Part shown: positions 15,772-26,765 of the stretch, piece by piece
How the letters are laid out: each line of letters starts with the position of its first letter
Numbering within the stretch: position 1 is the first letter of the stretch
Origin: Acholeplasmataceae bacterium
GTDB taxonomy: Bacteria > Bacillota_I > Bacilli_A > Acholeplasmatales > Acholeplasmataceae
Length of the DNA: 64,000 nt
Reading direction: 5' to 3'
Assembly: GCA_021108415.1 (NCBI GenBank)
Contig: JAIOQX010000002.1
Location: 597,519 to 661,518 of the forward strand
Notes under the pieces: generated by a model
What the model saw: the letters and a program-made list of their open reading frames with translations, nothing else
The model's database searches: none
Told to the model about the DNA's origin: nothing
Made by a program: the position numbers and the translations under genes

Positions 15772-15955
15772 CAAAAATGATTGAATAAGTTAAATGGATT
15801 TAGGTAATATATTAAGTACTCATAAAGCATGATTATATATGTCATACAGTTAAATCAAACTAGCATAATTGTAGAAAACATAGGGATATTTTGATTTTAT
15901 AATTAGATTTTATTTATTTGCACATACTAGAATTCCAATATGTTATTTATACTTG

Positions 15956-15999
15956 AAAGAGGTCTTTTATGCTTCTATAACGGCATAAAAGACCTCTTT
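15956..15999. terminator. strong hairpin terminator (17 bp stem)
   Basis: aaagaggtcttttatgc ... gcataaaagacctcttt perfect inverted repeat. Confidence 0.65.
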
Positions 16000-16335
16000 G
16001 TTTATTTTGATTTTTTCTATATGTTTCCTATTACAAGTTGCGTTGAGTGAACCAAATTGCTCGAAAATGGGGTCTTGTGTGTACTCAAGTAACATCAAAT
16101 TGACTGTTTTATGTTTATACATACAAGCAATAGAAAAAGTAAAGAAACATGTTTTGATGATAATTTAATGTTCTATGATTAGTTTTAGTCTGTGTCGAGT
16201 TAATGCATTGCTTGTTTTTTATATGCTGTCTGTATTGAAGTAACATAAACATAGCTTTTTATATTCACATAAACAATGTTGAGTGTTGTTAAGAAATATA
16301 ATTGCATACATATATCTCTGAAGCTTACAAATTAA

Positions 16336-16836
16336 TTATATTGTATTATTTTGATTTTCATTTAGGTTTTCTATCTTCACACTTGAATACTTTCTGATAG
16401 CTTTTAGAATGTTAGGAGTGAAACTTATTTGTATGATATCCTTGTTTTTAATCAGTTGATAATATGACATGCCTTCTGTGGATAGTTTACTAATAAAAAG
16501 CCACTGATCTACTCTATTAAAAATCCTTAACTCTTTTATGTCTTCCCATAAAAAATCTTTTTTAAAGAAACGGTTAAATAGTGATCTGTGAACACCTTCT
16601 TCATCAAAAGAAATCATTGAAAAGCACTTATTTAAAGTGAACATTAATGTTAGTGTTGGAAAACCACCTAGTATGATAGCGAATGCTATTAAAGTACCCT
16701 TTGAAGCGTTTTCTAAATTTGATTTCGGTAAAATATAAAAAATTAGTATGAATTGAAAATAACTTAGAATACAAATAAATAAGACTCCAAACAAGATGAG
16801 GGGTGAGGCAAGAAACTTTGTTTTTGTGTTATCCAT
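16336..16836 (-). CDS. small membrane protein with C-terminal PH-like segment; candidate Rhs immunity protein
   Basis: Two hydrophobic segments (SPLILFGVLFICILSYFQFILIFYIL; LIAFAIILGGFPTLTLMFTL); ATG preceded by aaaggag; start next to the 3' end of the Rhs fragment. Confidence 0.5.
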   Translation of the reverse strand: MDNTKTKFLASPLILFGVLFICILSYFQFILIFYILPKSNLENASKGTLIAFAIILGGFPTLTLMFTLNKCFSMISFDEEGVHRSLFNRFFKKDFLWEDIKELRIFNRVDQWLFISKLSTEGMSYYQLIKNKDIIQISFTPNILKAIRKYSSVKIENLNENQNNTI

Positions 16837-16849
16837 GTTAATTTCTCCT

Positions 16850-18022
16850 TTAATCGCATACAGCAATTATATCTATTATATTTTCTTCATTCTCTTCTTT
16901 TTCTTCTACTAATAAATTAGCCAACGAGTTTAGTAGAGATCCTGTAGCACCATATGTAAAAGCCAAAAAAGCAGTTGTTGCGGTTAATGAAAGTGAATTA
17001 CTTATTCTTGTCATTATGGGTATAGTTCTATTAACCATGTTGCCAAATAAGCTTGGAGTTGAACTAGCTATATAGCTCATTGTACAAAAACTTCCTAGAG
17101 TTATAGCTGCTGAAATACCTCCTACAATGAGACTGTGTCCTAATTCGATTTTATTCCATCCTTTATTCATACCTTGAGATACAACATCCCCTAAACCACC
17201 ACCAAGAAAGCCTGTGCCTGCTGCAAATGGCATCCCTAAAGCTGGACCTAAAGCTACTGCCGTAGCAATACCCACACTAATGATAGCACCCGCTACCGCA
17301 CCGCTACAGAATCCTGCACCAATATCATCACCGTTAATTGCAGCGGTTATAGCTCCTACATAGCCTCCAATAGCAGCACCTAACACAACTGTTCCAAGTA
17401 TTGCCAAAAATGATTTCCCACTTGGGTCTACATGCATGATTGGATTGTTTCCACAATAAGCATACATATTGGTCGCAATAATATTACCTTGTTCACCTAG
17501 CAACCCATCACTATTAATAAATCTACCTATTAATGGATTATAATATCTACTATTTAGGTAATAAAGGTTTGTTTCTGAATCATATCTATACCCACGATAT
17601 GTATATGAATTAATATTTGCAATGTAACCATAACCTGAAGTAACTTCTGTTTTAGTAATATTTCCATATGCATCATAGACATAATGAACTACTGTTAATC
17701 CACTAGCATTTAAAATATGGGTTATATCTCCTTGTTGATTTCTTAAATAGAAATAATCTTCCTCATTATTGCTTATATTAACATTAGGATCATATGAAAA
17801 CCCTATTAAAGTTCCATCATAATCATATGTGTACAGTATAGCATAGGTCCCGTTAGTTTCAAAGATAACTTGATCATTAATTAAGGTATATTCAATAGTT
17901 TCTATGACTGTAGTAGTTGTTGCTATTTCTTTACTTGTTCTATATCCATGGTCGTTATATTTATATGAGATGATATATAAAGGTGTAGGATTATACGCTT
18001 CATATATTTGGACTTCTTTATT
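16850..18022 (-). pseudogene. start-less Rhs/YD-repeat core plus C-terminal variable domain (orphan Rhs-CT)
   Basis: Frame open from TAA at 18023-18025 to 16850 without ATG/GTG/TTG near its 5' end: YIISYKYNDHGYRTSKE..YFYLRNQQGDITHILNASGLTVVHYVYDAYGNITKTE..YTYRGYRYDSETNLYYLNSRYYNPLIGRFINSDG..YAYCGNNPIMHVDPSGK then Gly/Ala-rich CT. ORF track shows only the part from TTG at 17503. Confidence 0.85.
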
Positions 18023-18216
18023 TTAATTATATACTTCCAAATTAGATATGAACAGGGCGTAAATGGCCGATTCAATCTTTTTATTATAAATATAATATTA
18101 TTTTTTATATTTTTGAATTATTTGTATGTTTTATAAATGATTATGTTAGACTATACATATCAAACATTTAACAAAAAAATTAACTAATTTATATTATCAG
18201 ATAGGAGTCTAGCTAA

Positions 18217-18987
18217 ATGAAGCTAAAATTTTTAACTCAAAACCTACATTGCTTAGTAGAAAAAGATCTGATTACAAAACAACATATACTTGCAAACAAA
18301 ATTGCAGAGCTTGATATAGATATAGTTTTCCTACAGGAAGTTGCACAAACTAAAACACTACATGATCCATCAAAAACGACTATCGAAGATGATAATTATG
18401 GTTTGGTTTTACAAAAAGTTCTTAAAGATAAGGGATTACACTATCACTTCTATTTTGAACCGATCAAAGAGAGTTTTTCGATTTATGATGAAGGTGTTGC
18501 AATATTATCAAAATATCCCCTAGACTATGTAGACGCAAAAACTATATCAAAGACCAATGATTATTCTAATTGGAAAACTAGAAAAGCTTTAGTATATAAA
18601 CTTTCAATACATCAGAAAACTATAACTTTAGCTACAACACACTTTGGTTGGACTGATGATGTTGAAAGATTTGAAGATCAATTTGATTTAATCAGTCAAA
18701 CACTTATGAAAGAAGATTTATCTATCTTAGCCGGTGATTACAATATCTATCCCACATCTAATGAATATAAACACATCATCAACCGTGGTTGGCTAGATAT
18801 ATTTAAAGATGATCAAGTCTATCTTCAAAAACCTACCTTTAGTGGTGAAGATCATACACATTCTAGGCAAATTAGAATAGATTATATCATGACCAATAAG
18901 CCTGTTACTTTGGTTGATAAAGAAATATTATTTACTAAAGATCGAATAAGTGATCATTATGGCGTTTTTGTAGAAATTAGCATTTAG
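18217..18987 (+). CDS. endonuclease/exonuclease/phosphatase family protein
   Basis: LKFLTQNLHCL, DIVFLQEV, LAGDYNIYP, RIDYIMTNK, SDHYGVFVEI. Confidence 0.85.
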   Translation: MKLKFLTQNLHCLVEKDLITKQHILANKIAELDIDIVFLQEVAQTKTLHDPSKTTIEDDNYGLVLQKVLKDKGLHYHFYFEPIKESFSIYDEGVAILSKYPLDYVDAKTISKTNDYSNWKTRKALVYKLSIHQKTITLATTHFGWTDDVERFEDQFDLISQTLMKEDLSILAGDYNIYPTSNEYKHIINRGWLDIFKDDQVYLQKPTFSGEDHTHSRQIRIDYIMTNKPVTLVDKEILFTKDRISDHYGVFVEISI

Positions 18988-19045
18988 TCATCAAAAAAGC
19001 CCTTCTGGGCTTTTTTGCTATGCTTACTTATACAGTTCTATTTAA

Positions 19046-20511: not shown

Positions 20512-21897
20512 TTATGCAACATATGTAATCACAAAATATATAACAAATAAAATAGCTAATGCATACATCACAGGATTAACTTCTTTTGCTTTCTTTTGAG
20601 ATATCATAATAATTGGATAGAATATAAATCCTACTGCAATACCATTTGCAATTGAATATGAAAGAATCATCATAATTACAGTGAAAAATCCAGTAATCAC
20701 AATTGCTTTGTCATCCCAATCAATGTCTTTTAATTGTGCAAACATTAATGTACCTACCATAATTAACGCCATTGCAGTAACCGGACTATACACAATAGCG
20801 TCACCTAAGGCATTCGTATCTACTACAACACCATTAAAGATTGATAAAACAGGATACAAGAATATAGATAATAAGAACAATACAGCTACAGTAACGCTTG
20901 TTAATCCAGTACGTCCACCTTGTTCAATACCAGTTGATGATTCAATATAACTAGTTACGTTAGATGTACCTAACATTGCGCCAGCAATTGTACCAATTGA
21001 ATCAGCGATTAATGCATTATCTCCACCTTCAATAACGCCTTCATCATTGATTAGACCTGCTTGATTACCAACAGCCATTAAAGTACCTGCAGTATCAAAG
21101 AAATCAACAAACAATAAAGAAAATATAACAACAACTGCATTCCAACTAGAAAATAACTCAGAAAAACCTCCAAATGCAGCTCCGACTGTATCTCTTGTAC
21201 CACTCCATACACCAGACATGCCAGCTGAATCGTATACAGGCATCATATCAACGCCAAGCGTGTTTAAAATCAATCCGACAACTGCAGTTCCAACTATTGC
21301 TGTAATAAGCGCAAACTTGAATTTTAAGGCATATAAAACAACAACTAAGATTAATCCAAATAAAGCTAGTAAAACAGTTGGATGTGCAAGATTGCCTAAT
21401 TTAACAAATGTTGCAGCATCTCCTACGATAATACCCGCATTTTTAAATCCGATGAATGCAATAAAAAACCCAATCCCTGCACCTACTGCAAGTTTTAACC
21501 CTTTAGGAATCGCATTAATTACAACTTTTCTTAATCCTGTTAAAGAAATGATTAAGAATAAAACTCCAGATACCAATACAGCAGCTAATGCAGCTTCAGG
21601 GCTATATCCTAGTCCAAAATTAACAAGTGTATAGGTAAAAAATGCATTTAATCCCATACCAGGTGCTAATGCAACAGGCAGATTTGCAAGTAGACCCATA
21701 ATCAGTGTAGCAATTGCCGCTGATACAGCAGTTGCAAAGAAAACTCCACCTACAGGTAGTCCAGTTGCAGCAAGCATGAAACTATTAACAGGTAAGATAT
21801 AAGCCATTGCTAGAAAAATTGTTACCCCTGCTAATACTTCTTTTAAAACAGATGATCCGCGTTCTTCAATTTTGAAGAACTTTTTTACTTTTTCCAT
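20512..21897 (-). CDS. NCS2 guanine/hypoxanthine permease (PbuG/AzgA-like)
   Basis: EVLAGVTIFLAMAYILPVNSFML, GMGLNAFFTYTLV, DFFDTAGTLMAVGNQAG, GTSNVTSYIESSTGIEQGGRTGLTSV. Confidence 0.93.
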   Translation of the reverse strand: MEKVKKFFKIEERGSSVLKEVLAGVTIFLAMAYILPVNSFMLAATGLPVGGVFFATAVSAAIATLIMGLLANLPVALAPGMGLNAFFTYTLVNFGLGYSPEAALAAVLVSGVLFLIISLTGLRKVVINAIPKGLKLAVGAGIGFFIAFIGFKNAGIIVGDAATFVKLGNLAHPTVLLALFGLILVVVLYALKFKFALITAIVGTAVVGLILNTLGVDMMPVYDSAGMSGVWSGTRDTVGAAFGGFSELFSSWNAVVVIFSLLFVDFFDTAGTLMAVGNQAGLINDEGVIEGGDNALIADSIGTIAGAMLGTSNVTSYIESSTGIEQGGRTGLTSVTVAVLFLLSIFLYPVLSIFNGVVVDTNALGDAIVYSPVTAMALIMVGTLMFAQLKDIDWDDKAIVITGFFTVIMMILSYSIANGIAVGFIFYPIIMISQKKAKEVNPVMYALAILFVIYFVITYVA

Positions 21898-21972: not shown

Positions 21973-22001
21973 ATATGAAAACAATAAAAAAAGATGTTTT
22001 C

Positions 22002-22072
22002 ATATCGTAGTCGTGAATTTTACGGCTTCACGGTAGAAACTTGACCACCACATTTGGTCGATTATACGATAT
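22002..22072 (-). ncRNA. purine (guanine-class) riboswitch aptamer
   Basis: minus strand ATATCGTATAATCGACCAAATGTGGTGGTCAAGTTTCTACCGTGAAGCCGTAAAATTCACGACTACGATAT; P1 8 bp, J2/3 GTTTCTACC, L3 CCGTAAA, specificity C in GACTACG. Confidence 0.93.
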
Positions 22073-22149
22073 ATTGAATACTTTTTTAGTATAACAAAGA
22101 TTTATTTATATGTAAAGATGAGAATGAAAGAAAATGAAAGAAATTACAT

Positions 22150-26540: not shown

Positions 26541-26765
26541 ATAAAAATCGTCCTTAAAAAAATCTCTAAGGACGAATCATCGCGGTACCACCTTAGTTCT
26601 AGGGATTCCTAGCACTTAAATCCTTTAACGCAGGACTACGTTTAATCTACTTATCGACTAAAAGACTCAAAAACCATTTTCATCACTTTGTTGGTTCGTT
26701 TGCACCACACACGAACTCTCTTTTTTCAACTTAAAGTGATTACTCTTTTTATCATTGTCTATTCT
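26541..26765 (-). promoter_or_regulatory. T-box leader of metG (Met AUG specifier), with terminator
   Basis: T-box TAAGGTGGTACCGCG at 26581-26595 (minus); terminator TCGTCCTTA...TAAGGACGATTTTT at 26548-26575; Stem I AGAGAGTTCGTGTGTGGTGC and AGTGATGAAA containing ATG. Confidence 0.9.

Follow-up and report, generated by a model that had tools for sequence, protein, structure and literature searches.

The window analysed here, a stretch of 64,000 nucleotides from an Acholeplasmataceae bacterium, carries on its minus strand the C-terminal fragment of an Rhs protein (16853–18022), directly followed by a gene for a small protein with two transmembrane (TM) segments (16336–16836). Judging from comparison across related genomes, the two genes very probably form a cognate toxin/immunity cassette. 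A fuller reading, which sequence and analogy make reasonably likely, is that this is a silent, recombination-dependent orphan Rhs/WapA cassette, in which a membrane-depolarising toxin would be paired with an integral-membrane immunity protein, similar to Tse5-Tsi5.

The fragment occupies 390 open codons (18022–16853), with a TAA before them (18025–18023) and another after them (16852–16850), in agreement with the 391-codon minus-strand frame (18022–16850) of the initial annotation. Residues 116–202 match the Rhs repeat-associated core of NCBIfam (TIGR03696 Rhs_assc_core; 17417–17677, minus strand) with an E-value of 5.2e-21 and 74.9 bits (cut-off 32.5), and thus far beyond chance. The core is terminated by DPSG (17428–17417), giving the DPxG end that marks the boundary to the C-terminal (CT) region in Rhs/WapA proteins. 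While the Rhs core first described is clearly present, the YD repeats described with it are weak and fall below the cut-off (PF05593, E 0.0076; TIGR01643, E 0.03).

The frame had also been said to lack a usable start at its 5' end, and its first 173 codons indeed contain no ATG, GTG or TTG. The first in-frame start-type codon is a TTG at 17503 (codon 174), and the first ATG is found at 17467 (codon 186). The delivery part of an Rhs/WapA protein, consisting of signal peptide, DNRLRE domain and YD repeats, is absent from the fragment protein, which is thus an orphan CT cassette rather than a complete Rhs/WapA. Decay of the missing upstream part in place was considered and rejected, since the 190 bases before 18022 contain no readable Rhs sequence in any of the minus frames. 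Startless, with an intact frame, displaced, and with a putative immunity gene alongside, the fragment has the features of an orphan Rhs cassette.

The neighbour encodes 166 amino acids, with TM segments predicted at about residues 5–39 and 47–68 and a soluble C-terminal part of about 95 residues. As initially annotated, it has two predicted TM segments and a ribosome-binding site of its own: AAAGGAG, read directly in the sequence at 16851–16845, overlaps the toxin stop codon and lies 8 nt before the ATG at 16836. The two genes had been described as overlapping; this arises only if the TTG at 16866 is taken as the start, and the ribosome-binding site with ATG 16836 leaves a gap of 13 nt from the toxin stop. 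The residues conserved in the family are P60, G81, W97, W112, S116 and I135. The term PH-like, given to the protein from its sequence pattern, is a reasonable reading; searches of curated families (Pfam, NCBIfam, PADLOC) and of PDB sequence profiles gave no match for it, a PH-domain family included. Among 15 relatives, there are weak matches to NF041635 (STM3941 family) in five (best E 1e-5) and to PF17353 (DUF5381) in one (best E 1e-4). Both are likewise families of small membrane proteins, although neither matches the window protein itself.

The pairing of the two genes recurs in related bacteria. A search with the CT region in 160 genomes of the order found matches in 13. Identity is 80% in G022, the nearest relative and a member of the same genus, in which both cassette genes are 80% identical; it is 65% in G037, 38% in G077, and lower in the others. 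Nine members from eight genomes were aligned (the window, G022, G037, G077, G033, G045, G031 and two from G159). In all nine, the gene directly downstream belongs to the neighbour family, and several of these pairs lie within Rhs toxin/immunity arrays; distant pairs are also found in G097, G101 and G117. Such a co-inherited downstream gene is expected of an Rhs/WapA system, as is a variable CT, and many different CTs are found behind similar cores in this lineage. Comparative genomics thus points to one toxin/immunity module, in line with the initial proposal that the neighbour is the cognate partner of the CT.

When the neighbour was used as the query in a separate search, 23 genomes gave matches, most of them weak, and the better ones fall largely in the same Rhs loci as those of the CT search. 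The exceptions include an orphan immunity gene within the G159 Rhs array and a copy in G010 next to a fragment of an Rhs core. The pairing had been said to be open to refutation by genomes in which the two genes occur independently. Such independence is not seen for the toxin, since every close CT is paired, but distant members of the neighbour family occur without Rhs in G023 and G024. The two-TM immunity-like proteins of these genomes (L045 and L047) are similar to each other, have different gene neighbourhoods, and come from genomes without Rhs cores; they may be orphan immunity proteins or have some other function.

The arrangement in G022 is an array, which begins with a gene for a 2278-aa WapA-like protein with DNRLRE domain, Rhs core and CT1. 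This is followed by imm1, an orphan CT of the window type, the window-type immunity gene, a third CT with its core, and imm3. DNA identity between the window and G022 is 82–84% over the CT, the immunity gene and part of the core. In G037 (JAHISX010000043.1), the cassette is flanked by other orphan CTs. A narrower search with the CT profile returned only this G037 record and no viral contig, and a plasmid search for the cassette gave no matches. In a class-wide sample, the CT family was found in five of 395 genomes and the immunity family also in five of 395; one of the class-wide matches, in G294, is a distant CT whose downstream gene encodes a similarly built two-TM protein.

The cassette sits on an insertion of about 3.2 kb between uraA and an APC permease gene (15772–19045, the outer borders being approximate). 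In four genomes of the same genus (G022, G023, G024 and G025), these two genes are convergent and about 40–60 bp apart. Besides the cassette, the insertion contains an attachment-site-like repeat (16039–16200, minus strand) and an endonuclease/exonuclease/phosphatase family gene (PF03372; 18217–18987, plus strand), divergent from the cassette, for which a search of 87 further genomes of the family gave no match at E<=1e-20. The GC content of the insertion shows no marked difference. An 18-bp stem-loop at 15956–15999 is a likely terminator, one such structure being found against 1.0 expected in shuffles. Elsewhere in the window, a purine riboswitch (21988–22089) upstream of the permease gene at 20512–21897 and a T-box leader (26565–26764) are both ordinary.

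Copies of the attachment-like repeat are present in 29 of 88 family genomes. They have about 100 bp in common, next to which comes the core CACTCAACGCA, at the end of the repeat, and then a continuation of one of a few kinds. One kind, which runs into a gene end, codes THVESIVLLSLK, which resembles the C-terminal end of 23S rRNA (uracil) methyltransferases. Several copies lie 0.3–0.6 kb from a gene for a 572-aa large serine recombinase (PF00239, PF07508, PF13408). The repeat adjoins Rhs loci in the window, in G022, where two tandem copies end the homologous array, and in G027, where it follows an Rhs gene; most copies are not near Rhs. These positions hint that large-serine-recombinase elements may mobilise Rhs cassettes.

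Both genes of the pair are under purifying selection. Comparison of the window with G022 gives the same dN/dS, 0.28, for the CT and for the immunity gene, and comparison with G037 gives 0.30 and 0.16, respectively. For the soluble, predicted cytosolic part of the immunity protein, the values are 0.07–0.13. Neutral simulations with dS as observed would leave the CT with about 41% identity, compared with the 80% seen, and it stayed free of stops in 0.6% of the runs. Selection and the open frame argue that the fragment is not junk, even though it is untranslatable from a start of its own. It had been called a remnant, but the intact frame, dN/dS of about 0.3 and the position on an inserted island contradict this, and the reading as a decayed remnant was dropped. 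Since related bacteria also carry this pair, it looks rather like a stored weapon part.

After DPSG, the fragment continues for 188 hydrophobic residues, of which the first half is rich in Gly and Ala. The initial annotation had proposed that the CT may be membrane-active. The core-proximal half, CT residues 1–95 (17144–17428, minus strand), appears to be a shared Gly-zipper linker. Nine GxxxG motifs occur in the first 100 CT residues against 4.9 in shuffles (P 0.02), and in three genomes (G008, G027 and G042) a similar Gly-zipper stretch precedes an unrelated C-terminal domain with the motif HVFWSGG, whose neighbour is soluble. The first 90 residues are mostly hydrophobic in 48 CTs of the lineage regardless of what follows, which, with the stretch before the unrelated domain, suggests a linker or entry segment. 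All invariant columns of the nine-member alignment (D1, G4 and seven other glycines) belong to the core motif or the linker.

The last ~95 residues (CT residues 96–192; 16853–17143, minus strand) are likely the toxin proper, a putative membrane-active domain. They are hydrophobic and without a family match, and in G022 and G037 they are conserved as far as the stop codon. Among 48 CT/next-gene pairs of the lineage, the number of TM segments in the next protein rises with the hydropathy of the last 90 residues (rho 0.66, P 3e-7; with the window family left out, rho 0.46, P 0.004), these P values being too small because the pairs are partly related by descent and so non-independent. For the hydropathy of the linker, rho is −0.04. 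The window pair is a member of the hydrophobic-tip/two-TM group, which, with this correlation, supports a toxin that acts on membranes. The correlation suggests that, in this lineage, membrane-type toxins may be marked by membrane-type immunity, and the window pair is most economically read as a toxin that acts at the membrane, together with an immunity protein located there.

Database searches with the CT itself (Pfam, NCBIfam and PADLOC, and a CT profile against PDB sequences) gave nothing, and comparison with pore-formers in Pfam, NCBIfam and PDB sequences gave no match. Three other CTs of the lineage likewise had no Pfam hits. AlphaFold models of the CT and of the neighbour, built on a two-sequence alignment, reached a mean pLDDT of 42 and 52, respectively, with no fold. 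Of the 48 genes that immediately follow an Rhs CT, four code for predicted lipoproteins (L006 14015–14692, L041, L098 and L103), which suggests that immunity proteins might be surface-anchored in this wall-less lineage. The CT that precedes L006 14015 contains the pattern GFIHSHT...SSAD, reminiscent of a JAB-type metal site, with no Pfam match.

The host genome (1.78 Mb in six contigs, 99.85% complete) contains no penicillin-binding transpeptidase domain and no MraY in searches that match walled bacteria, and many of its long frames end in TGA. It follows that the host is wall-less and reads TGA as stop. The initial annotation considered such a cassette unusual in a Mollicute-like genome; this is ruled out for the lineage, as Rhs core domains are present in 18 of 28 genera of the order and in 60 of the 160 genomes, and the host itself has a WapA-like gene and two other orphans. 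The WapA-like gene, of the full-length type, lies on contig C3 (L006 7819–14166), with an inverted orphan core and CT beside it (L006 7641–6421); another orphan CT is found at L007 7392–7934. A full-length gene sharing the core of the fragment had been suggested as a thing to look for elsewhere in the genome: the WapA was found, but the fragment is only about 50% identical in protein to the other Rhs cores of the host, and the WapA core about 70% in DNA over 134 bp.

The resident WapA-like frame is broken by an in-frame TGA (L006 9958–9960) after 713 codons, with a long open frame beyond it; this may be a nonsense mutation, an assembly error, or a site of readthrough. Given the diverged core and the interrupted frame, recombination of the cassette within the host genome would be inefficient. 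A separate feature of this locus is an inverted repeat of 781 bp with 96.9% identity (L006 6958–7737 and 12877–13657, or C3:284957–285736 and 290876–291656), which pairs the resident WapA core with the oppositely oriented orphan core and CT. The WapA start region lies between the two copies, so an inversion would swap the toxin tip.

How might the cassette work? In its present place, without a translation start or an export signal on the fragment, likely only the immunity gene is translated, and its product would protect the cell against siblings that deploy the window toxin. The core before DPSG would serve as a handle for recombination with the core of a full-length WapA-like gene whose product is Sec-exported, by analogy with the Salmonella Rhs orphans, after which the cell would display and deliver the window toxin. 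Export would proceed by the Sec route through the WapA part, as for WapA of S. suis, a Sec-exported Rhs protein (PMC12704120). After delivery to a neighbouring cell, the Gly-zipper linker may help the toxin to enter the membrane, where helices from the last ~95 residues would insert and dissipate the potential. In the producer, the immunity protein, held by its two TM anchors with the C-terminal domain in the cytosol, would bind and block the inserted toxin.

Several other explanations have to be weighed against this one. The toxin may still belong to an Rhs cassette and be no pore-former, acting on the membrane in another way (by binding an enzyme or transporter, or by attacking lipid) that the two-TM neighbour blocks. 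The CT has no similarity to known pore-formers and the C-terminal tip of some family members is less hydrophobic (gravy 0.14–0.36), as this would predict, but the lack of catalytic-looking conserved polar residues in the CT and the hydrophobic tip make such an action unlikely. It is rather improbable that only the immunity gene matters and that the fragment is what remains of an earlier cassette, at a locus kept as an orphan immunity island against neighbours. Although a startless fragment beside a gene with its own ribosome-binding site, a soluble immunity part that evolves more slowly than the toxin tip, and the related genes without Rhs in G023 and G024 all fit this explanation, it does not account for a CT frame that is open, with dN/dS of about 0.3 against G022, and an orphan in both genomes.

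The CT could also be made in the cytoplasm from an internal start at ATG 17467 or 17437, in which case the pair would be an intracellular toxin-antitoxin module. These ATG codons just upstream of DPSG are retained, and one report describes Salmonella RHS elements as type II toxin-antitoxin modules (PMC7043789). Yet both codons are part of the conserved core motif, no convincing ribosome-binding site precedes 17467, and promoter-like sites are fewer than the random expectation (10 against 17.6), so we regard this as highly unlikely. Least credible of all is a tail that consists of the pre-toxin linker only, with the toxin proper lost and an unrelated membrane protein next to it. In G008, G027 and G042, the linker half does precede an unrelated toxin type whose neighbour is soluble; however, conservation of the last ~95 residues to the stop in G022 and G037, and the constant presence of the same neighbour family, speak strongly against it. 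On balance, the orphan cassette with a membrane-depolarising toxin and a membrane immunity protein is the reading that we prefer.

Rhs/WapA systems are common in this order, yet they are apparently unreported for wall-less bacteria: a full-text literature search for Rhs in Acholeplasma found nothing relevant, and one for Mollicutes with "polymorphic toxin" found only Spiroplasma papers. The toxin tip and the two-TM immunity family are absent from curated libraries and are unnamed, while the orphan Rhs/WapA cassette itself is of a known type. The window pair is thus a clear and testable toxin/immunity candidate from wall-less bacteria. If it works, it would offer a route to study WapA-like toxin delivery between cells without walls. 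A wider and rather doubtful idea is that the Rhs tips and immunity genes of Acholeplasmatales are mobile cassettes, shuttled by large serine recombinases, switched by inversion between duplicated cores, and with a sizeable share aimed at membranes.

Several known systems resemble parts of this arrangement. In Salmonella, an orphan Rhs toxin without start or export signals is activated by recombination (PMC3967940). Like the window cassette, the orphan rhs of Salmonella Typhimurium LT2 is a startless core and CT with an immunity gene of its own; its use requires recombination into the full-length rhs, as would that of the window cassette. However, the LT2 orphan directly follows the main rhs, whereas the window orphan stands alone on an insertion, far from a WapA with a diverged core, and the toxins differ. 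With WapA of Bacillus and Streptococcus, the full-length genes of relatives in the lineage share an N-terminal signal-like segment, DNRLRE, an Rhs core and a variable CT. In contrast, the host has no wall for anchoring and the window carries only a fragment.

For the putative toxin itself, a parallel is the pore-forming Rhs toxin pair Tse5-Tsi5 of P. aeruginosa, which also combines an Rhs core, a hydrophobic toxin without an enzymatic motif, and a two-TM immunity neighbour; two TM regions are predicted for Tsi5, which reverses the depolarisation caused by Tse5-CT (PMC9637101). It differs in being delivered by a T6SS, and the PDB sequence of Tse5 (8cp6) aligns only to the core of the window fragment. 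EsxX, like TelE, is a glycine-zipper depolarising toxin of the Firmicute T7SS (PMC12744356). These LXG toxins, with the ExiCD proteins, share with the window pair a hydrophobic glycine-zipper segment and a membrane protein as the immunity partner, which is putative in the window. Their delivery is by T7SS/LXG, their immunity proteins have six TM segments, and in the window family the zipper half is a linker common to other toxins. The CDI ionophores have an entry domain and a variable ionophore domain, with polymorphic cognate immunity and modular swapping (PMC11630599). Although CdiA belongs to two-partner secretion in Gram-negatives, this entry-domain/ionophore-domain modularity is like that of the linker and tip described here.
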